A stretch of 64,000 nt of DNA from Rhodothermales bacterium (GTDB lineage Bacteria; Bacteroidota; Rhodothermia; Rhodothermales; VXPQ01). The position numbers and the translations under genes were made by a program. The DNA lies in assembly GCA_951812335.1 (NCBI GenBank), contig OX638293.1, positions 2,439,584 to 2,503,583 of the forward strand, read 5' to 3'. Each line of letters opens with the position of its first letter. Position 1 is the first letter of the stretch. Under the pieces are notes generated by a model that had not been told where the DNA came from, ran no database searches, and worked only from the letters and a program-made list of their open reading frames with translations. This document shows, piece after piece, positions 913-59,185 of this stretch.

Positions 913-3900
913 TCAAGGTCGCTTTTCCGTCAACGAATCGCAAGCAACGGCGGCACGCACGAAATCTTCGTGTAGTATCCGGTCCAGCGTTTCCACATAC
1001 CGGTCAATCCCGAAAGTTTCTATGACCATGGGAGGTTTGATCTTGAGCACATTGCCGTACGGCCCGTCCACACTGGCAAGAATGCCCGATTCGCGCATCC
1101 GCTCCACTACATAGCAAGCCGCCTGGCCTGCCGGTTCTTTCGATGTCCGGCTGGCAACCAGCTCCACGCCCAGAAAAAGTCCGTGGCCGCGCACGTCTCC
1201 AATCATCTCGTGTATTCCGGCAAGCGCCGTCAACCCATCGAGGAATTGCCCGCCCCTTTCAAACGCACGCTGCATAAGACCTTCCTCCTCGATCGCATCC
1301 AGCACCGCCAACCCCGCCGCACAGGAAGCCGGGCTACCGCCGAAGGTATTGAAGTATTCCATGCCTGTATCGAAGGACCGCGTCAATTCCGGAGTCGTCA
1401 CGACGGCGCCTAACGGATATCCGTTGCCGATGGGTTTACCCATCGTCACGATGTCCGGGATGGCGCCTTGCAATTCAAAGGCCCAGAACGTCTCTCCCAT
1501 GCGCCCGAACCCGGTCTGCACCTCGTCGGCAATGCATACGGCGCCTGCCTCCCGGGCCGCATCGAATGCCTTGCGGAGATACCCGTCGGGGAAAAACACT
1601 TGCCCGGCGCACCCCATTGCCGACTCAGCCATAAAGGCAGCCACTCCGTCAGGCGCATTGGCCAGCGTACGGCGAAGCAGCGTCGCATGATCGTCGGCGG
1701 AACCGGCATGCCGGTACGGGTCGGGAGTGGGCACGATATGTACATGCGCAGGACGCCCCTGCCCGCCCTTCCCATCGAATTTGTACGAACTGACGGCAAT
1801 CAGCGACGACAGGTGACCATGATAGGCCTGTTCTATCGCCGCCACATCCCGGAATCCGGTATGGGCGCGGGCAATGCGCAGCGCCAGATCGTTCGCCTCG
1901 CTCCCGCTGTTTACGAAAAAACACACGGACAGCGGATCCGGGAGCCGGGCCGCAAGACGTTCCGCATAGCGGCTCAGTTCGTCGTAGAGATAGCGCGTGT
2001 TCGTGTTCAGCACCCGCAACCGACGCGCCACAGCCTCGGCCACGCGCGGGTGTGCATGGCCTACATGCGCCACATTGTTGACCGTATCGAGAAAAGGCTG
2101 TCCGTTCTCGTCGTACAGATGTGCCATATGCCCCCGGTGTATGCACAAGGGCGCCCGATACGAAACGCTCAGCGACGGGGCGATACGTTCCCTCCGCTGG
2201 GCCAGCAACTCCGGAGCATTTGGCGTTAAAGGCGCACGAGCCTCAGCGGAAAGCCCCAGCAGATCGGACGGGTCTGGCGAAACGGCCATCCAGACCTCCT
2301 TGCACCACGGCGGCGCCACGCCGGGAAACGCTCCCTCGATATCCAGTCGATCCGCTATGATCTGAACATGCACGTGCGGCGCCCACCCACCGTTTTCGTC
2401 CGATGTCCCGATCTCGGCGATTTTTTCCCCGGCCCGCACTACCGAACCGATCTGTAATCCCTTGATGGAATCTCGGGACAAGTGGCCGTACAATGTGTGA
2501 AACACCGGGCCGCCTTCCAGGGCATGTTCGAGGAGCACAGTGGGACCGTAGTCGTAGGGATTATCGTAATCCGCTACGCTGCACACCACGCCGTCGAGCG
2601 GCGCAAAAACAGGACTCTCCGGCGGCTGGAACAAATCGACGCCCAGATGCACTGTGCGCATCTGCGACCCCGTCCTGAATTGCTCGCCCCGGTATACGAG
2701 GCGCACTTCAGCGTACCTCCCAATGCCGACCCCCGCTTCTTCCTCAAGCATCCTGCGCTGGATCTGCCGGGCTGACCGCTCCGGGTCCAACGGATTTCTG
2801 AAGGTCCATTCCGAGCTCTGCGTACTGAAATCGAACGTCACCGCTTTGGAAGGCGACGCAGCGACGACAGGGGCAAACGTCCCCCTGCTGCTGCGGCGAC
2901 GCCAGGCGGCAATGCGGGTCCCGTTCGGACACGGTTCGTACCCGCAGACATGCCGGAAAACGTATTCCGCAAAACGCGGAGGGACATCTCTGAGGAGGGT
3001 AAGCGTCCGAAGCGCAGGCTTCCGACTGACCATTAGATATGCATTGTCCGGCTCCATACGCTGCTGGTGCGCAGACATGCACACGCTGACGCACAACCGC
3101 ATTGCAAGAAAGGGAAACAGTACGCTCGTATCGTGCTCGTCGAGCGGAAATGCCCGGTGGCAACTTGCTGCAATGACAGAGGCGGCGCGAAGCGGATCGG
3201 CCATGCCAAGCACGCCGTATGCCGCAGCAACGGCCACATCGGCCACCGCGAACGAAACAAGCGTGTCCCCGAAGTCGATCAGTCCGGCAACGCGCCGGTT
3301 TCGGTGCTCCGGACCATTGACAAGCACATTCCAGTCGTTCGCATCGTGGTGCACGACACTACGGCGTAACCGGCCGCCGTAGCGAACCTGCGTATCCCGG
3401 AAAAGCCGAAGAAACGGTTCGACAAGCGCACGTTCGCCCGCCTCCAGAAATTCCATCCGCTCGGTAACGGTCTCTGCGGCGCGGGCCATGTCCCAGACCA
3501 GCGAGCGTTCAAGTGCGGGGTGCTTGAAATCCGTCAGCGCAGAGGACATCCGCCCGACGAATCGCCCAAGGTCGGACAACAAATCGCAGGAGCGCGGGCG
3601 TACCGAAGCAAGCGGTACGCCGGATAACCAGGAAAGAAGTCGCGCGAAATGCCGGCGGCCTTGCTCGTCGGATAGTTGTAGGATATCCTCGCCGTCGAGC
3701 GCCGGAACGACCGCAGGTACAGCCAGTCCGTGGCCTGCAAGGCGGCGCATGACGGCATGATGCGCCTGCAAGACCTGCCTGTCCTCGAGCGCATGAGCGA
3801 TCTTGAATACAAAGGAAGGTTCGCAGGACGAAGAATCGCGAGCCGATCCGTTGCACTCGCCGGTATACACGGCGAAATTGAGATCGCGGTCGCTGGGCAG

Positions 3901-4023
3901 GGTTTCGAGACGCACAGACACGCCATACCGCTCGGCGAGAATCCGGCGGACCGTGTCCTGTTCCAAACGAGGCCGGTGGCGGGCAATGTCGGTGACCTCG
4001 AAGTGCACGGCATCCTCGCTCAT
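913..4023 (-). CDS. Three-domain protein: APH-like kinase, M23 peptidase-like, class III aminotransferase
   Basis: A 1036-residue fusion. The N-terminal third is an aminoglycoside-phosphotransferase/choline-kinase fold with the catalytic loop [11 protein letters not shown] and the metal motif LIDFGDT. The middle (about residues 450-600) is an M23/LytM-like fold with HLGVDLF, YGHLS and HVHVQI. The C-terminal 400 residues are a class III PLP aminotransferase with [11 protein letters not shown] and the PLP-lysine segment [13 protein letters not shown]. The ATG at 4023 overlaps the stop of the upstream lipoprotein gene by 4 bp, which decides this start over one 30 codons earlier. Related fusions are known in Proteobacteria, and the aminotransferase part resembles the phospho-lyase group (AGXT2L/ETNPPL). 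A kinase plus phospho-lyase route on an amino alcohol is my inference. No export signal is visible, which is odd for an M23 domain. Confidence 0.9.
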
Positions 4024-5078
4024 GGCGCAGGTCGGAAAGAAATTCGTGCAATACGCCCTTCGGGCCCCACCATCCATACGGCGTCCGGACTCGCCGCATC
4101 CACGCTCCACCACGTCAGCGAATCGAGCGGCGACCAGGTTTGCGCATCGTCCACAGAGAAGGCTGCTCCACCCGGACCCGTCGCTATAAGGATGCCGCCG
4201 GGAACATACGTTGCGCCATATACCGCCCCGGGAAATCCGGGGGAGGAAGCAAGCCGCCAGGTCGAGCCGCCATCATCCGTGACGGCGACATTCTGCTGTA
4301 TAGCCTCCGGGGCGGTCAGATCCCCGCCCAGCGCCACGCCATGTCGCGCATCCCGGAAGGCCAGCGTGGTCACCCCTGCCGCCTCCCCTCCCGGCAGAGG
4401 TACGTCGCTACTTGTCCAGGCGTTGCCCCGTTCCTCGTTCCTGAACGCTCGCGGCATCGCTGCATTGCCGGTCCCGATAAGAACCGCCTGGTCATCCAGC
4501 ACAATCAAACAGGTCCCGCTGGCGGCAAAGCCACCCTCTCCCGGCTGTGCGGACGGGAGCGTTCCTTCGGGAAGCACCCGCCAGACATCGCCATCCTCCG
4601 TATACAGTAGCGGAAATTCCCCGTCTACCGCGTCACTGAACGCAAACCCCGATCCGTCTTCCCGAAAATCGAAACAATCGAAAAACGCCGCATCGATATC
4701 GTTCTGGAAGAGCATCTGCCATGAAGCGCCCCGGTCAACGGTCCGGTAGATGCGCGAATCCTCCCCCGGCCCGATGCTGAGCAGATAGGCCTCGTCGAGG
4801 CTCACGGCATGCACATCCCGGAACTGGAGGCTGTCGGCGCCGGGCGCCGTGCCGGCATGCCAGATAGCGCCGCCGTCATCCGTCCATGCATAGCTCCCCC
4901 CCGTGCCCGCCGCCCATACAATGCGGTCGGATACCGCGTGCAACCCAATGAGAAGTTCGTCCGTCCCCGATTCCTGCATATGAAGCACCGGAACAACCGG
5001 TCCCTCCTCGGACGAGCCGCACCCGGCGTATACAAGGGCGCACAAAAGAACGAAAAACGAAAAATGCGTTCGAAACAT
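4020..5078 (-). CDS. BNR/Asp-box repeat lipoprotein (YCF48/sialidase-like propeller)
   Basis: A 352-residue exported lipoprotein: hydrophobic signal followed by the lipobox VYAGC near residue 19. The body carries repeated Asp-box/BNR-like blades (WTDDGGAIW, RTVDRGASW, TDDGGSTW), the pattern of YCF48-like and sialidase-fold beta-propellers. Catalytic sialidase residues cannot be recognised, so a binding or structural role is more likely. Its TGA overlaps the ATG of the downstream three-domain gene (4-bp overlap), so the two are translationally coupled. It is divergent from the choice-of-anchor B gene with a 222-bp gap. Confidence 0.8.
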   Translation of the reverse strand: MFRTHFSFFVLLCALVYAGCGSSEEGPVVPVLHMQESGTDELLIGLHAVSDRIVWAAGTGGSYAWTDDGGAIWHAGTAPGADSLQFRDVHAVSLDEAYLLSIGPGEDSRIYRTVDRGASWQMLFQNDIDAAFFDCFDFREDGSGFAFSDAVDGEFPLLYTEDGDVWRVLPEGTLPSAQPGEGGFAASGTCLIVLDDQAVLIGTGNAAMPRAFRNEERGNAWTSSDVPLPGGEAAGVTTLAFRDARHGVALGGDLTAPEAIQQNVAVTDDGGSTWRLASSPGFPGAVYGATYVPGGILIATGPGGAAFSVDDAQTWSPLDSLTWWSVDAASPDAVWMVGPEGRIARISFRPAP

Positions 5079-7755: not shown

Positions 7756-7779
7756 TTAAGGATACTCTGATTAAGTCCG
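7756..7779 (+). repeat. Solo end of the GGATACTCTGAT repeat (copy A)
   Basis: Contains TTAAGGATACTCTGATTAAG followed by TCCG. It matches the terminal inverted repeat of the full element at 9162-9425 (right-end version, read inward). No partner end lies nearby. It sits 9 bp upstream of the ATG of the YncE-like gene. Confidence 0.75.
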
Positions 7780-7788
7780 ACGGCTTTC

Positions 7789-9159
7789 ATGCGGCGATAT
7801 TTTGAAACCATCGCCCTCGTCTGCATACTGTGCGGCATCGCCGCAACGGTTTCCTCGATACAGGCAGCGGGACAAACGCGAATCGACATCGTGTTTACGC
7901 GCGATGTTCTTCCGGTTATTCGGAAATCCTTTCTTCCTCTTTTTACGGAGGACACCGGGCTCGACGGAGGATCATGGGAAACCTTGATGCGGGGATCCGA
8001 ACAGGGAGAAGTCGTCATTCCCTTCGACGCCGACCGAAGCCTGCTTATAGAGCGCGCAGAACTGGCGGGCATCGACCCCGCCGCCATTGCGCTGGTTCGG
8101 GCATGGATCGAAGGCGGCGCACAGAGCGACGCGGGAGAAATTCCGTATGCGGATGCAGGGCCGCTCCTCTATGTGTGCAACCAGGGATCCGCGGTGATTT
8201 CCGTTATCGACATGGAAGCCCATGTCGTCGTCCGTACCGTGGATCTGCGCGATTTTGGATTCTCCGGGAATGCCAAACCGCACCATGTGGCGGTCACCCC
8301 CGACGGGGCATTCTGGTACGTATCGCTCATCGGCGAGCATACCGTGCTGAAATTCAACCGGCTCAACGAGCTGGTGGGTCGCACGGCGTTCGAGGCGCCG
8401 GGTATGCTGGCCTTCGATCCTGTCCTGGAACAATTGTATGTGGGCCGGTCGATGAGCGCCGTCAACCCGCCGCAGCGCATCGGCATCATCGAGCCGGACA
8501 GCATGGATATCGAGGAAATCGACGTATTCCATCCCCGGCCGCACGCTCTTAACGTGACCCCCGACGGCAGGTACGTGTTCAGCGCCAGTCTCGGCATGAA
8601 TCAGATTGCTGTAGTGGACGCCGAATCCCTGAATATCGAACTCGTCCCCGTCCCGGGCACGCATCACAGCCTGGTGCAATTTACCGTGGCTCCCGACGGA
8701 CGCTCCATGATCGTCGGAGGGCATATGAGTGGAGATATCCTGTTTCTCGACATCACAGAGCCGATGCAGCCCGAGGTCACGCAAACCCTGCCCCTTGGCG
8801 GAGGGCCCTGGCATCCATCGTTTCTCCCCGGAGGGGATCGTGTGGTCTTTCCCGCCAAAATGGCCAACGCCGTTTCTATTCTTGACGTGGCTACCGGAAC
8901 CGAAGTCGAAAGAATTTTCGGGCACGGCCTCGCAGAGCCGCACGGCAGTGCGGTACGACCGGACGGACGGTATATCTACGTATCCAGCAACAACCTGAAC
9001 GCCGCGTTCACCCCCCGATACCACCAGGAAGACAATGATTCTCCCAACGGATCGGTGGTAGTCATCGACGCAAACACGTTCGACATCGTAAAGGTCATCG
9101 AGGTAGAACAGTATCCCACGGGCATCGGCGCTCAGCGGGATGAAGCGGCCGCCCGCTAA
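7789..9159 (+). CDS. YncE/YVTN-like beta-propeller protein with a haem-less cytochrome-like N-terminus
   Basis: A 456-residue exported protein with a signal peptide ending near SSIQAAG. Residues about 30-115 resemble the cytochrome-c-type module common in planctomycete and Bacteroidota proteins (FTRDVLPVIRKSFLPLF, later ALVRAWIEGGAQ), but there is no CxxCH, so haem cannot be bound covalently. Residues about 120-450 are YVTN/YncE propeller repeats (YVCNQGSAVISVIDM, VTPDGRYVF, VRPDGRYIYVSSNN). Probably a periplasmic or surface binding protein. It lies between two other propeller genes and is preceded by a repeat end 9 bp upstream. Confidence 0.82.
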   Translation: MRRYFETIALVCILCGIAATVSSIQAAGQTRIDIVFTRDVLPVIRKSFLPLFTEDTGLDGGSWETLMRGSEQGEVVIPFDADRSLLIERAELAGIDPAAIALVRAWIEGGAQSDAGEIPYADAGPLLYVCNQGSAVISVIDMEAHVVVRTVDLRDFGFSGNAKPHHVAVTPDGAFWYVSLIGEHTVLKFNRLNELVGRTAFEAPGMLAFDPVLEQLYVGRSMSAVNPPQRIGIIEPDSMDIEEIDVFHPRPHALNVTPDGRYVFSASLGMNQIAVVDAESLNIELVPVPGTHHSLVQFTVAPDGRSMIVGGHMSGDILFLDITEPMQPEVTQTLPLGGGPWHPSFLPGGDRVVFPAKMANAVSILDVATGTEVERIFGHGLAEPHGSAVRPDGRYIYVSSNNLNAAFTPRYHQEDNDSPNGSVVVIDANTFDIVKVIEVEQYPTGIGAQRDEAAAR

Positions 9160-9161
9160 GA

Positions 9162-9425
9162 CTTAGGGATACTCTGATCAAAACCGCTTCGATCGAGCGC
9201 TTCATGTTCGTGCGTAAACGACATCATGGTTCCCTCGTTGCAATTTGCGAAAAACACTGAGGTTTCGGGCATCGCGGACGTGAAGCGCCCTTCGGGAGGC
9301 TACGAGAAGCACGCTGGCCGCATCATTCCTCATTATGTGGGACCCGCCACATTGCTTCGTCATTCCTTGCCAGCGCACTTCTCGCAGCCTCTGAACTTCG
9401 CGGACTTAATCAGAGTATTCTTAGG
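9162..9425 (+). mobile_element. Near-complete 264-bp non-autonomous repeat element (copy B)
   Basis: Bounded by CTTAGGGATACTCTG on the left and, inverted, CCTAAGAATACTCTG on the right. It carries an internal inverted repeat of 21 bp (9298-9318 with 9369-9389, 18 of 21 matching) around a 50-bp loop. The left half matches the copy at 39355-39505 almost base for base, and parts match 58888-59024. It starts 3 bp after the stop of the YncE-like gene and ends against the ATG of the next gene. No credible protein is encoded, so I read it as a MITE-like element needing a transposase supplied in trans. Confidence 0.75.
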
Positions 9426-11375
9426 ATGCATCGTTCCCGTCTACTCCCTTTTCTTTTCCTCCTTTTCGGCGCGCTGCCGGTTACATTCCTTCCCGGTTGC
9501 GCCGGTACGGAACCGCGTGCAACAACCGAGCGGGCTGCTGGCGAAATACCCACCCGGCGTATAATCGCTCCCTTCGAGGTATTCAAGGCGAACGGCGACG
9601 CATACGCTTATCCTTTTCTCGGCGGATTCAACATGCCGAGACCTCAACTTCTCGATATCGATGCGGATGGAGACAATGACCTGTTCGTGCAGGAGCATCC
9701 GAACGCAATCATTTTTTTCGAGCGCAACGACACGCCGGGGCCGCTTTTATGGACCTGGCGCTCCGACAAATATGCAGGACTCGACATCGGAGAATGGTAC
9801 CGTTTCGCAGACATGGACGGAGACGGCGATTTCGACCTGCTCGCCGAGCAGCCTTTCAGTCATATGCGGTACTACAAAAACGTAGGAACGCCCCTGCGAG
9901 CCTCCTTCGTACAGGCGGCCGATACCCTTCGGGACGTAGATGGTGAACCGGTATTCTCCGACCGTCAGAACATCCCCAATATTACCGACATCGACTGCGA
10001 TGGCCTGCCGGATCTGTTCATTGGACGCATCGACGGCACCGTCATGCGGTACGAAGCCGTCGAAACCGAACCCACACCCGTATTCAGGCTACTTACAGAA
10101 AATTTTGAGGATATTCGGATTGTGGCTCAGTTTGGACAGCCTGGCATGCTCGCCCCGCCGGCCCTTCCGAATATTCCGGGAGGAGATGAAAATTTCATGA
10201 ACGAAGGGCCGTCTCCGGGAAAAGATTTCTTCGCGAAAGACACGCAAGGCCGGTCCGATCCGCTGCATGGAGCCAATACCATGACCTTTGCCGATATCGA
10301 CGGCGACGGCGACCAGGACCTGTTCTGGGGGGATTTCTTCGAGCCGGGCCTGCTGTATATCGAAAACACGGGGGGCTGCACCAGGCCTCGCCTGCGCACT
10401 ACGCCCGTTCCTTTTCCGCCCGCCGATCCGCTCCAGTCCAGCGGGTACAATGCCCCCTCTTTCGGAGATCTCGATGCCGACGGAGATATGGATCTGCTGG
10501 CAGGTGTCCTCGGGGGAGCCTTCAATCCGAACAGGACGGCGCGATCCAATCTGTATATGTACGAACAGCTCCCGGAAGAACGATTTGCGCTGCGTACGAC
10601 CCGATTCATGGACCAGATCGATGCGGGAAGCGAAAGCTATCCCGTGCTGGTCGATCTGGATGCGGACGGCGACGACGACCTGCTCGTCGCCAATAAAATC
10701 TCATCGGAAGACGGACGTACCGCCTCGCTGGCGTACTTCGAAAACGCAGACGGCGCATACCATGCAGGAGAAGCACCCGTCTTCTTTCCCGCCTATCATT
10801 ACGCGCCGGCCTTCGCAGACCTGGACGCCGACGGCGACAAGGACCTTTTGCTCGGGACATGGAACGACGGCATAGCATGGTACCGCAACGAAGGCGCCCC
10901 CGGCGCGCCGCATTTCGTTTTGAAACAGCGGGCATTTATCCGATTGACGCGCGGCAGTCACACCACGCCGGCATTGGTAGACATCGACAACGACGGCGAC
11001 CTTGACCTGTTCGTGGGCGAAACTTCCGGGACCATCAATTTCTACCGGAATGCAGGGATCCCTTCCGCCCCGGTCTTCGAGTTTGTTTCCGACGAATACG
11101 CCGGGATCGATGTCGGACGCCGCAGCGTTCCGACGTTTATCGATGCAGACCGCGACGGGGACCTGGACATGATTGTCGGAAGCGAGCACGAGGGCCTTCT
11201 GCTCTTTCGCAACCGGGGAGACCGGACCACGCCCATGTTCGGGGAAAGCGAACCGCTGCCGTACGATGTGCCCGAAACAGCAGCCCCGGCATTCGGCGAC
11301 CCGGATGGCGACGGCGCCCTCGAACTTGTGGTTGGCGGATACAGTGGCGGACTCCTTTACTTTGACGGACCGTAA
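9426..11375 (+). CDS. FG-GAP/VCBS repeat lipoprotein
   Basis: A 649-residue lipoprotein: signal MHRSRLLPFLFLLFGAL with lipobox FLPGC at about residue 25. The mature part is built from at least ten FG-GAP/VCBS-type blades with calcium-binding turns of the form DxDxDGDxD (DIDADGDNDLFV, DMDGDGDFDLL, DIDGDGDQDLF, DIDNDGDLDLFV). Such proteins form integrin-like propellers on the cell surface. The ATG directly abuts the right end of the repeat element at 9162-9425, so the leader of this gene is repeat sequence. Confidence 0.87.
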   Translation: MHRSRLLPFLFLLFGALPVTFLPGCAGTEPRATTERAAGEIPTRRIIAPFEVFKANGDAYAYPFLGGFNMPRPQLLDIDADGDNDLFVQEHPNAIIFFERNDTPGPLLWTWRSDKYAGLDIGEWYRFADMDGDGDFDLLAEQPFSHMRYYKNVGTPLRASFVQAADTLRDVDGEPVFSDRQNIPNITDIDCDGLPDLFIGRIDGTVMRYEAVETEPTPVFRLLTENFEDIRIVAQFGQPGMLAPPALPNIPGGDENFMNEGPSPGKDFFAKDTQGRSDPLHGANTMTFADIDGDGDQDLFWGDFFEPGLLYIENTGGCTRPRLRTTPVPFPPADPLQSSGYNAPSFGDLDADGDMDLLAGVLGGAFNPNRTARSNLYMYEQLPEERFALRTTRFMDQIDAGSESYPVLVDLDADGDDDLLVANKISSEDGRTASLAYFENADGAYHAGEAPVFFPAYHYAPAFADLDADGDKDLLLGTWNDGIAWYRNEGAPGAPHFVLKQRAFIRLTRGSHTTPALVDIDNDGDLDLFVGETSGTINFYRNAGIPSAPVFEFVSDEYAGIDVGRRSVPTFIDADRDGDLDMIVGSEHEGLLLFRNRGDRTTPMFGESEPLPYDVPETAAPAFGDPDGDGALELVVGGYSGGLLYFDGP

Positions 11376-37092: not shown

Positions 37093-37875
37093 TCAATACG
37101 AATAAATCACGCTTGCGCTCCAGAGAAAATCGTCACCCGAGATTTCGGTGTGCAAGGATTTGTTGATCATCGCCGACAGGGAAAACGGAAGACCTCTTTT
37201 CGCCAATACGGCGTGCGAAGAAAAATACGTCCCGCTCTCATCGTCTACCATATCGTCCATATCCTCTATTCCCAGATAGTAGACTTGCGAGTTTAGCGAA
37301 ACGGTCCATCCGTCGAACACGTCGATATTCGATAATGCGGTATTGAAGACGATAAAATTCAGGTTGCGCAAGGTGGTTTTTTCTATACCGCGCGCATACA
37401 GAACCAGCAGCCCTACACTCAGATTTTTCGTAAGGGAATATTCGGGCAGGACCTGCCCGCCTACGAATCTGCGGGCTATGATGGCGTCCCGAGGGACCTT
37501 ATCTTCGTCTTCCGTTTCCGTGACGGTCGATGTGACGAAGTTAAGGACGGAGTTGAGGGCGACTCGAAGCCTGAACTTGTCGGTTTGCATCATTCGGTAT
37601 TGCCACCGGAACACAAAATCCCAGGGTCTCCCTGTCGTGGCAAACCGAAGTTCCGGCTCGAACGTAAATTTCCCCTTTCCGATTCTCGTGTACGATTGTA
37701 TGGCGGGCTTACCGAGGGTAAAGTTGGGTATTTGCGAAACGCCTTTGTTGGTAATGCCGATCGTCCCCTCGAAGGCTTTCCGCTCCTGCTCGACCTCTTG
37801 AGCAAGCGCAAAGCGGGCAGGCAGGATGAACGAAAGGAACAGGATCGCGCCTGCGATCGGATAGGTCGTTTTCAT
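37093..37875 (-). CDS. Uncharacterised outer-membrane beta-barrel-like protein
   Basis: A 260-residue exported protein (MKTTYPIAGAILFLSF, cleavage after ALAQ). The mature part alternates hydrophobic and polar residues as in a beta-barrel (KFTFEPELRFATTG, FVFRWQYRMMQTDKFRLRVA, LSVGLLVLYARG) and ends with the aromatic strand FLWSASVIYSY. I do not recognise the family. The ATG at 37875 lies at the edge of a 59-bp tandem repeat array, so its leader consists of repeat copies. A remnant of a second copy of its 3' end lies at 39242-39354. Confidence 0.7.
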   Translation of the reverse strand: MKTTYPIAGAILFLSFILPARFALAQEVEQERKAFEGTIGITNKGVSQIPNFTLGKPAIQSYTRIGKGKFTFEPELRFATTGRPWDFVFRWQYRMMQTDKFRLRVALNSVLNFVTSTVTETEDEDKVPRDAIIARRFVGGQVLPEYSLTKNLSVGLLVLYARGIEKTTLRNLNFIVFNTALSNIDVFDGWTVSLNSQVYYLGIEDMDDMVDDESGTYFSSHAVLAKRGLPFSLSAMINKSLHTEISGDDFLWSASVIYSY

Positions 37876-38050
37876 AGTGCTTGTCAATGGACGATCCTTG
37901 CCTCAGGCTGCAAGCCCGCCTGCTTGATTTTTATGGTGCTTGTCAACGGACGATCCTTACATCAGGCTGTAAGTCCGCCTGCTTGATTTTTATGGTGCTT
38001 GTCAACGAACGATCCTTACATCAGGCTGTAAGTCCGCCTGCTTGATTTTT
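37874..38050. repeat. Three tandem copies of a 59-bp unit
   Basis: Units start at 37874, 37933 and 37992 and share GTGCTTGTCAA, GATCCTT, CAGGCTG and CCGCCTGCTTGATTTTT. Units 2 and 3 differ at few positions and unit 1 is more diverged. Each contains a small stem (CAGGC with GCCTG). The array begins at the start codon of the outer-membrane gene on the minus strand and extends upstream of it. Confidence 0.85.
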
Positions 38051-38267
38051 ATGGTTTTTCCCGGTTGTCGCCGCCCTGACCGGGTACCGGATAGGCTGCA
38101 ACAACATGTCGCTCTCCAACCGGAAACGCAAACGGCCCTTCGGCCCGCTGCGATCCGCGACGAAGAACGGTTGCAGAAAGCCGAAGGAGCACATTCCGTA
38201 AAGATAGGCAACCGGGACCGGCTTTCCAGTTTAGAGCACAAGCCCCTTATGTTATGAGTAATCTGGT
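38051..38267. other. Non-coding gap between the tandem array and the palindrome pair
   Basis: Frames exist on both strands but are short, Cys- or Arg-rich and without recognisable motifs. Together with the flanking repeats it forms a region of nearly 700 bp (37876-38566) lacking a confident gene, in an accessory patch of decayed sequence. Confidence 0.35.
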
Positions 38268-38375: not shown

Positions 38376-38555
38376 ATGGGCGACACATCATCTTGCAGTG
38401 CCGGAAGCACGCCGAACGCTTGCGGATGCTGTGCCCCGGTTGAAACAGTTCAGGATACTCTGATCAAAACCGGTTCGCCCAAAAACGAGGGCGAACCGGT
38501 TGGAACAATTGTTTATTCTTTTCGTGATTGCATGAAATCATTTTTATCCGAATGA
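38376..38555 (+). pseudogene. Cys-rich 5' gene fragment interrupted by a repeat end
   Basis: From ATG 38376 the frame reads MGDTSSCSAGSTPNACGCC, then APVETV. The next codons (QDTLIKTG) are the GGATACTCTGATCAAA repeat end and its hairpin, after which the composition changes. I read this as the first 25 codons of a gene truncated by insertion of the repeat. The Cys cluster resembles the metal- or metalloid-binding N-termini of some arsenic-related or redox proteins, but I cannot name the family. A short Cys-rich peptide is the alternative. Confidence 0.3.
38452..38501 (+). repeat. Repeat end joined to a perfect 13-bp hairpin (copy C)
   Basis: GGATACTCTGATCAAA starts at 38453 and runs into an inverted repeat of 13 bp (38468-38480 with 38489-38501, no mismatches, 8-nt loop). 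The second arm is not the usual repeat end, so this is a chimeric copy. It lies 65 bp upstream of the antitoxin start and could influence transcription of the toxin-antitoxin pair. Confidence 0.7.
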
Positions 38556-38566
38556 ACGAGGATCTT

Positions 38567-38821
38567 ATGGCCAGTATCACCATTCGCAATCTCTCCGCAG
38601 AGTCGAAGGAACGACTCCGGCGCACAGCCAGAAAACGGGGTTGTAGCCTTGAAGCGTTGGTCCGGTCTATTCTGGACGACGCCGCCAGAGACGCTACCCA
38701 CGATACGGCAGCGGCCTCCGGATTTCCGTTCGATCTCATTTCGATGGTCGAGCCCGGCGAAGACATCGAACCGTTTCTGGAAGATCACGACCACCCGCAA
38801 GCGCCTCTGAACCTGCAATGA
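38567..38821 (+). CDS. FitA/VapB-type antitoxin
   Basis: An 84-residue protein starting MASITIRNLSAESKERLRR, a ribbon-helix-helix DNA-binding domain of the FitA/VapB type. The acidic C-terminus (EPGEDIEPFLEDHDH) would wrap the toxin. AGGAT lies 4 nt before the ATG at 38567; a longer start 13 codons upstream lacks this. Its stop overlaps the toxin ATG by 4 bp, the standard coupling of such modules. It would neutralise the PIN-domain toxin and repress the operon. Confidence 0.87.
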   Translation: MASITIRNLSAESKERLRRTARKRGCSLEALVRSILDDAARDATHDTAAASGFPFDLISMVEPGEDIEPFLEDHDHPQAPLNLQ

Positions 38822-39228
38822 TCCTGCTGGACACAAATGTATTGTCCGAGCTGACCAAGCCAACGCCTTCAGCTCATGTGGTCGCCTGGCTCAACGACAA
38901 CGAACCCATACTGGCGCTGTCGGCCGTCACGCTCGCCGAGTTGCGTTACGGGATAGCGCGGCTCCCCGATGGCAAGCGAAAGTCGAGCCTGATCCGTTTC
39001 TGGAACATGACCAGAGATCGTTTCAAAGGAAGAACCTTACCCTTCGACGAACGCACAGCCGAAATCTACGGCGATATCGTAGCCGAAGCCGAAAAGCAAG
39101 GACGGCGACTGAATGTTGCCGATGCGCAAATTGCGGCAATTGCTCTCGCGCACCGTATGTCCGTGGCGACGCGGAACACAGGGGATTTCGAGAATACGGG
39201 CGTGACGGAAATCAATCCCTGGACGTGA
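38818..39228 (+). CDS. vapC: VapC/FitB-type PIN-domain ribonuclease toxin
   Basis: A 136-residue PIN-domain protein with the expected acidic residues: Asp in MILLDTNVLSEL, Glu in VTLAELRYGI, Asp in LNVADAQIAAIA and Asp near the end in TRNTGDFENTG. PIN toxins of this class cleave tRNA or rRNA when freed from the antitoxin. The length is normal and the active site looks complete, so the toxin is probably functional. Its ATG overlaps the antitoxin stop. Confidence 0.93.
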   Translation: MILLDTNVLSELTKPTPSAHVVAWLNDNEPILALSAVTLAELRYGIARLPDGKRKSSLIRFWNMTRDRFKGRTLPFDERTAEIYGDIVAEAEKQGRRLNVADAQIAAIALAHRMSVATRNTGDFENTGVTEINPWT

Positions 39229-39241
39229 TTTCATCCTCTCC

Positions 39242-39354
39242 TCAATACGAATAAATCATACTTGCGCTCCAGAGAAAACTGTCACCGGGAAGATCGGTCC
39301 GAAAAGCCTTGTTCATCATAGCCGACAGGGAAAGCGGAAAACCGAAGTTGCACA
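39242..39354 (-). pseudogene. 3' remnant of a second copy of the outer-membrane protein at 37093-37875
   Basis: The minus strand encodes GFPLSLSAMMNKAFRTD and then FLWSASMIYSY before a stop, matching the last 37 or so codons of the gene at 37093-37875 in sequence and length. Upstream the match ends abruptly where the repeat element at 39355-39505 begins, so the 5' part has been lost or replaced. Confidence 0.8.
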
Positions 39355-39505
39355 GCCAGCGTGCCCCTCTCTGCCTCCCGAAGGGCGCTTCACGCCCGCC
39401 GACGCCCCGAATCTGCGGTGTTTTCCACTAATTTCAATGATGTAAAATCTTTTACGCACGAGCGTGAAGCGCTGGTCAAAGTGGATTTGATCAGAGTATC
39501 CTTAA
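39355..39505 (-). mobile_element. Half-element of the GGATACTCTGAT family (copy D)
   Basis: Read on the minus strand from 39505, it follows the left half of copy B (TTAAGGATACTCTGATCAAA, then GCGCTTCACGCTCGTGCG, then CGTGAAGCGCCCTTCGGG) as far as GCACGCTGGC, the inner edge of copy B's hairpin arm, then stops. Its other end and half the hairpin are missing. Its terminal bases form the last codons and the stop of the coiled-coil gene at 39491-39835. Confidence 0.8.
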
Positions 39506-39835
39506 AATCTGGAATACAAACTGCGCCAATACGCCGGCAATAACCCCAAAGCCCAACCCCATTATCCAGCGAAGAAGGACATTGTTTTGCTCCATCATGT
39601 CGGCCCGGAGTTCGCCTATCTCAGCGCGTACGGAACCTACCTCAGCTCGTACGGAACCTACCTCGGCTCGTACGGAACCTATCTCGGCTCGTACGGAACC
39701 TATCTCGGCTCGTACGAAATCTTCCGAGGCCGAGCCCCCCTGCCCGTTACGAATAGCTTTCGCTATCGCTTCGGCCGGGCGCTGTCCGAGGCCCGCATTC
39801 ACAAGAGCGTGGGCGATGGCAAGGGTGTCGATCAT
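39491..39835 (-). CDS. Coiled-coil protein with heptad repeats and C-terminal membrane anchor
   Basis: A 114-residue protein. The N-terminus (MIDTLAIAHALVNAGLGQRPAEAIA) resembles DUF1640/CCDC90-like proteins. The middle is a coiled coil built from five copies of a 7-residue unit (SVRAEIG/SVRAEVG). The C-terminal MGLGFGVIAGVLAQFVFQIL is a transmembrane helix. The last four residues and the stop (LRIL, TGA) are encoded by the end of the repeat element at 39355-39505, so the natural C-terminus may differ. Another repeat copy lies 15 bp upstream of the ATG. Function unknown. Confidence 0.72.
   Translation of the reverse strand: MIDTLAIAHALVNAGLGQRPAEAIAKAIRNGQGGSASEDFVRAEIGSVRAEIGSVRAEVGSVRAEVGSVRAEIGELRADMMEQNNVLLRWIMGLGFGVIAGVLAQFVFQILRIL
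39615..39719. repeat. Five tandem 21-bp repeats inside the coiled-coil gene
   Basis: Five contiguous 21-bp units of the form CCTATCTCGGCTCGTACGGAA begin at 39615, 39636, 39657, 39678 and 39699, with one to three differences between neighbours. They encode the heptads of the coiled coil, so copy-number change would keep the frame and alter coil length in steps of seven residues. Confidence 0.92.
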
Positions 39836-39850
39836 GGCTTTCGGAAAGGT

Positions 39851-58710: not shown

Positions 58711-59185
58711 TCGGAATGACGGAACGGACGGGATGCAGAAAAATTATCCTGTTCCAGCCGCGCAATCCTTATCCAGAGAACCAATTCCTATGCAAGAACG
58801 AGGCAGGAACGGAATTATTGTTTCACGGACGAATTGGTTGGTTTTATTGAAACCGCACGCTGCCGGGAAAGATCGATCCGGGCGGCTTTAAGGATACTCT
58901 GATCAAAACCGCTTCGCTCAGCGCTTCGCGTTTGTGCGTATAAGAATATCATAATTGCATCGTTGAAATTAGCGGAAAACGCTGCGGACTCGGGGCAGTG
59001 CGGACTTAATCAGAGTATCCTTAAGGAACCATTCGGGCATCTCTTTCATAATGAATTGGTTGCCGAAGACCGCCGCAAAGGCGCCTTCCTGTTCGAAAAC
59101 GCAACGCAACACGCCGTGCGCAGCGGCATCGCCACCCCTTGTACCGCCACTGCCTTACTTCTTCGTTCGATTCCCGCCGCGCGCA
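58711..59185. other. 475-bp divergent intergenic region with a repeat copy
   Basis: Separates the sigma-factor operon (minus) from the Mla genes (plus). Its centre is repeat copy H (58888-59024). The flanks hold no credible gene, although an ATG at 59051 is in frame with mlaE and would add a 45-residue non-conserved extension. Promoters of both operons must lie here. Confidence 0.4.
58888..59024 (+). mobile_element. Internally deleted element of the GGATACTCTGAT family (copy H)
   Basis: A 137-bp copy with both ends: TTAAGGATACTCTGATCAAA at the left and CGGACTTAATCAGAGTATCC then TTAA at the right. Between them it shares the left-interior sequence of copies B and D (GCGCTTCGCGTTTGTGCG, GTTGAAATTAGCGGAAAA), but the central hairpin arms are missing. 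The outermost bases are TTAA on both sides. Confidence 0.8.

Follow-up and report, generated by a model that had tools for sequence, protein, structure and literature searches.

A very probable IS5-type MITE with a strong predicted hairpin between a beta-propeller gene and an FG-GAP lipoprotein gene in a Rhodothermales bacterium

The window analysed here is a 64,000-nucleotide stretch of the genome of a Rhodothermales bacterium (G000; 2,686,407 bp in one contig), in which a 254-bp element lies between a gene for a beta-propeller protein and a gene for an FG-GAP repeat protein with a lipoprotein-like signal sequence (Table 1). The 4 bp TTAG stand on both sides of the element as a perfect direct repeat, and the span of 9162-9425 given in the preliminary description takes in both copies of this repeat. 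The stop codon of the beta-propeller gene (9157-9159) is located 3 bp before the left TTAG and the ATG of the FG-GAP gene (9426) one base past the right TTAG. No ORF of 100 aa or more is contained in the element, and the sole overlapping ORF (9226-9564) extends into the FG-GAP gene. Orthologues of both genes were found in all five same-genus relatives (G001 to G005), with 78-89% identity for the beta-propeller gene and 80-92% for the FG-GAP gene, and the two genes are adjacent in each of the five. A single 24-bp end of the same repeat family was also observed at 7756-7779, close before the beta-propeller ORF, which starts at 7789; the orthologous loci of G003, G004 and G005 lack this end.

Table 1. 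Coordinates of the element, its parts, the flanking genes and shorter family members in the window.
Feature	Position	Strand	Basis or remarks
Upstream gene, beta-propeller protein	7789..9159	+	Pfam Lactonase, 1.6e-8
Target-site duplication, left copy, TTAG	9163..9166	.	Identical to 9421-9424
Probable full-length MITE, 254 bp, ends GGATACTCTGATYAA	9167..9420	+	Alignment including 47 further full-length copies
Left terminal inverted repeat, GGATACTCTGATCAA	9167..9181	+	Whole-genome pattern matches
5'-half hairpin	9197..9289	+	Arms near AGCGCTTCATGTTCGTGCG and GGACGTGAAGCGCC; MFE structure
3'-half hairpin	9298..9389	+	Arms 9298-9318 and 9369-9389, 50-nt loop 9319-9368; sequence and MFE structure
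Right terminal inverted repeat, GAATACTCTGATTAA on the - strand	9406..9420	-	Pairs with the left end in the fold
Target-site duplication, right copy, TTAG	9421..9424	.	
Downstream gene, FG-GAP repeat protein, lipoprotein-like signal sequence	9426..11375	+	Pfam FG-GAP_3, 1.1e-35
Truncated family member	39355..39501	-	Consensus 1-152 only
Short family member, 129 bp	58892..59020	+	Lacks the 3'-half hairpin, keeps both ends, TTAA on either side

Comparison of the orthologous loci showed that G004 is the sole one of the five relatives with the element at this position. The spacing between the two genes is 11 bp in G003 and G005 (GCTGAGACCCAGGATG), and 20 bp separate the aligned ends in G001 and G002. 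A single 4-bp counterpart, either CCAG or CGAG, lies in register at these four empty sites. Joining the two flanks of the filled site gives GCTAAGACTTAGGATGCAT, which aligns in register with G003 and G005 (GCTGAGACCCAGGATGCAT); the sequence left when the element and one TTAG are cut out, GCTAAGACTTAGGATG, lines up with the empty sites. As the element is absent from four of the five orthologous loci, the outcome favours insertion. With just 11-20 bp between the ORFs in these four relatives, the sequence was found to be a discrete repeated element and not an ordinary leader; conservation of the same 264 bp as a leader, which the preliminary description had named as the finding that would speak against it, was not observed. 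If the copy shared by G000 and G004 is shared by descent, the insertion would predate the split of these two genomes. The orthologous copy in G004 (L047) carries an extra left-end piece of about 39 bp ahead of a second left end, which suggests a nested insertion followed by loss.

A DNA search of G000 found about 270 candidate places for the family; forty of them were scored, and nearly all were full-length matches with 81-100% identity. The end motif GGATACTCYGATYAA has 422 matches in G000 (208 forward and 214 reverse), whereas the reversed-pattern control has none. Counted by the conserved core TGCTTCGTCATTCCTTGCC, with at most two mismatches, the family is represented 147 times in G000, 107 in G004, 58 in G002, 55 in G001, 38 in G005 and 22 in G003, a sevenfold difference inside the genus, and the core is absent from five genomes of the order outside the genus. 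A DNA search of sixty genomes of the genus and the order recovered the family in all six members of the genus and in none of the other 54 members of the order. A search for an exact 31-base core in one genome from each of 84,980 species gave matches solely in MAGs with the title Rhodothermales bacterium. Judged from these matches, the family is apparently confined to one Rhodothermales genus within the collections searched. In the draft relatives, several contigs stop within a copy.

Shorter members occur in the window (Table 1), and the smallest forms of the family are 37-bp minimal members that mostly consist of two ends placed head to head (L097 13070-13106, L098 4299-4335 and L075 9396-9432); one such member faces an apparently empty site in G004. 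At 38453-39501, two family ends in inverted orientation, 1049 bp from each other and with the truncated member on the right, enclose a VapBC-like pair consisting of a FitA-like antitoxin (38528-38821) and a PIN-domain protein (38818-39228). G004 has just about 116 bp at this locus, and the arrangement is possibly a MITE-flanked toxin-antitoxin cassette.

The assessment of target duplication drew on sampled stretches of G000 (0.78 Mb) and G004 (0.4 Mb) with 51 full-length and sixteen shorter end-to-end units. The 4-bp flanks are identical in seventeen of the 51 full-length units, compared with a mean of 6.0 for shuffled right flanks (p < 0.0005); at 3 or 5 bp, exact matches are not in excess in these units. 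Models of a TA-only, a 3-bp and a 6-bp duplication, which had been drawn by eye from single sites, were dropped since the test on the 51 copies favours 4 bp. The preferred target is TTAA or YTAR-like, with T/C, T, A and A/G at the successive positions in most copies; TGCA, CAAG and TATG are exceptions. G000 and G004 are about 90% identical across aligned stretches. Within collinear stretches, four full-length insertions are present in G000 where G004 is empty (B 32057, 55907, 64568 and 110595), and three (C 257107, 319775 and 347278) differ in the opposite way; several short insertions differ as well. The duplications at these filled and empty pairs include CTAT and TAAA. The differences between the two genomes therefore indicate that the family moved after they separated.

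The family shares a number of properties with repeats of the REP/REPIN type, which would be moved by a RAYT (IS200/IS605-like Y1) transposase: it is palindromic, intergenic and present in many copies, and its tiny 37-bp derivatives, made of two ends only, are REP-like. However, IS200/IS605-type transposition makes no target duplication, whereas the duplications observed here are clear and 4 bp long, and the same ends bound relics of a DDE transposase. We regard a REP/REPIN origin as extremely improbable.

These relics were identified through Pfam searches for DDE_Tnp_1 and DUF772 across the six genomes of the genus, and all three of them occur in G004. One relic is a 666-bp unit (G004:1211472-1212137) with family ends on both sides, enclosing N- and C-terminal pieces of one IS5-family transposase; it is decayed and not autonomous today. 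The other two retain the right end only. The longest relic matches NCBIfam IS5_4 (NF033581) with 143.1 bits (cut-off 140; 1.1e-41), and the transposase linked to the ends also matches PF01609 and PF05598. An intact relative, 328 aa long and with 72% identity across the relic, was found in G029, which belongs to another family of the order. This transposase sits between the similar ends GGAATGTCTGATCAA and GGATGTTCTGATTTA, with no matching target duplication on its two sides (CTAA vs TTTG). Other candidates were set aside: no family ends were found near the PF01609 matches in G000 (636280-636654), G001 and G002, nor, with up to 3 mismatches allowed, at a transposase remnant of 29 aa in G000 (2685034-2685120). 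Because no intact transposase with family ends was found in the six genomes of the genus, mobilisation by an IS5-family transposase is a matter of inference, and the sequences point to an IS5-family element, now decayed in the genus, as the most likely mobiliser. IS5 inserts with a YTAR duplication (PMC10359306). The present family resembles the IS5 family (NCBIfam IS5_4; E. coli IS5) in that its ends bound IS5-family relics and its 4-bp duplications resemble YTAR. It differs from IS5 in having no transposase, and the sequence that the 254-bp element shares with the relics is limited to their ends of about 15 bp.

Two sets of nested inverted repeats had been reported within 9162-9425, and both were confirmed. 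The ends of the span pair with each other, as seen in the sequence and in the fold, and the inner 21-nt arms, GGCTACGAGAAGCACGCTGGC (9298-9318) and GCCAGCGCACTTCTCGCAGCC (9369-9389), form pairs at 18 of their 21 positions around a 50-nt loop that includes CCCGCCACATTGCTTCGTC, as read directly in the sequence. The 5' half contains a further hairpin, in which AGCGCTTCATGTTCGTGCG pairs with CGCGGACGTGAAGCGCC, that had been overlooked. RNA folding, which the preliminary description had called for, gave a strong predicted hairpin for the + strand, with an MFE of -112.8 kcal/mol compared with -77.2 +/- 4.6 for shuffles (z -7.8; all 200 shuffles were less stable). The fold of the minus-strand RNA has a z of -5.6.

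Compensatory (both-sided) changes among the copies were found in twelve of 43 consensus pairs, with 52 cells compared with 18.5 after shuffling, counts that are inflated by relatedness among the copies; the signal is lost once the pairing is slid. The helix of the 5' half has compensatory changes in three of its seven consensus pairs. G-U and A-C cells are equally frequent (103 and 111, respectively) in the 51 pairs that the two strand folds have in common, and there is therefore no sign that the RNA of one strand is what selection keeps. The alignment of 9167-9420 with the 47 other full-length copies has a mean column identity of 82%. The terminal repeats are 93-95% conserved, and the 3' loop, measured as the 53-nt interior around it, is the top interior segment with 94.7% conservation, level with the ends, compared with 80.5% for the 5' loop.

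This pattern of conservation, a palindrome maintained through paired changes without strand bias, and the finding of only four of the 51 copies inside ORFs, where about 85% of random points would be expected to fall with a greedy ORF set, would be in keeping with a domesticated element acting at the DNA level, for instance by binding a nucleoid protein or one that processes DNA, that is retained between genes as useful. Gene avoidance is however expected from purifying selection alone, and the copies are spread across the types of gene-pair gap roughly as intergenic length predicts. The copies are also polymorphic among close relatives, their numbers vary sevenfold in the genus, and the differences in conservation may stem from subfamily mosaicism of the 5' half. 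Domestication is thus judged quite improbable, and the distribution is that of a selfish element which is tolerated where harm is small. The conserved 50-nt loop and the strand-neutral paired changes might reflect a selected function of the DNA hairpin, either in the element's own spread or as a site bound by a host factor, which we consider unlikely; if true, the family would be more than a passive IS5 passenger.

The preliminary description had also placed a long RNA hairpin in the leader of the FG-GAP gene. This proposal stands in so far as a strong hairpin is predicted just upstream of the ATG if the region is co-transcribed, whereas a role for the hairpin as RNA was unsupported. A functional RNA leader or attenuator, i.e., a cis-regulatory hairpin of the FG-GAP gene, would account for the predicted stability, for the compensatory changes and for the pairing of the 18 nt before the ATG, which in the predicted folds are less unpaired at the filled sites (0.06 in G000 and 0.13 in G004) than at the empty or joined sites (0.17-0.42). 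On the other hand, the locus is without the element in G001, G002, G003 and G005, and about 150 unrelated sites carry it. Relative to co-directional genes, seventeen copies have the same and fourteen the opposite orientation, which amounts to no bias, and the equal numbers of G-U and A-C mismatches, which show no strand preference, are unexpected under selection on the RNA of one strand. At the locus, the terminator scan returned one weak terminator-like match that is not above shuffles, i.e., no U-tract terminator beyond chance, and the promoter scan no sigma-70-like promoter. The Rfam scan of the window returned one tRNA alone, and the element has no Rfam match. We consider a functional RNA leader very doubtful.

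We are highly confident that the feature is an IS5-type MITE inserted between the two ORFs. It is short (254 bp) and non-coding, has 15-bp inverted ends, dispersed copies, a 4-bp duplication and empty sites, and shares its ends with a transposase-bearing relic in G004. In the mechanism proposed, the inverted ends of about 15 bp would be recognised by an IS5-family (DDE) transposase that, acting in trans, would have put the MITE into a YTAR-like target (TTAG) and duplicated 4 bp; the host genus would later have lost its intact transposase copies. As a side effect, the insert would separate two ORFs that once lay almost side by side, and transcripts across the junction would carry a long hairpin in which the sequence directly before the FG-GAP start codon is buried. 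As the 18 nt before the ATG are almost fully paired in the predicted fold, it is fair to predict that the lipoprotein gene is translated less or in an uncoupled manner, and such an effect of the hairpin is the most likely one under this model.

A literature search found no described MITE in Rhodothermales. Compared with the bacterial MITEs covered in a review (PMC10969869), namely Chunjie of Geobacter uraniireducens, QMITE2 of Coxiella and Correia of Neisseria, the element is alike in its size class (about 200-250 bp), terminal inverted repeats, target duplications, intergenic location and copy number (tens to more than 100), as well as in its truncated derivatives and stable predicted stem-loops. 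The value given there for the QMITE2 transcript, about -113, is similar to that of the Rhodothermales element. The latter differs from the named MITEs in sequence, host, 4-bp TTAA/YTAR-like duplication and, within the collections searched, its one-genus range. Elements of this kind are well documented and ordinary, and no new system is revealed; what is added is a MITE family of IS5 type that has a high copy number, clean empty sites, insertions that differ between close relatives and decayed transposase relics, which is useful for annotation and offers a natural experiment on a strong hairpin placed right before a start codon.

Three features unrelated to the family were also observed in the window. 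Three direct repeats with a period of about 59 bp, unmatched by the MITE consensus, lie at 37869-38055. A 21-nt tandem repeat in five copies (39579-39725) is located inside the minus-strand ORF 39491-39850, where it encodes a VRAEIGS repeat. Finally, a 1066-aa protein encoded at 913-4113 joins APH kinase, M23 peptidase and class-III aminotransferase domains.
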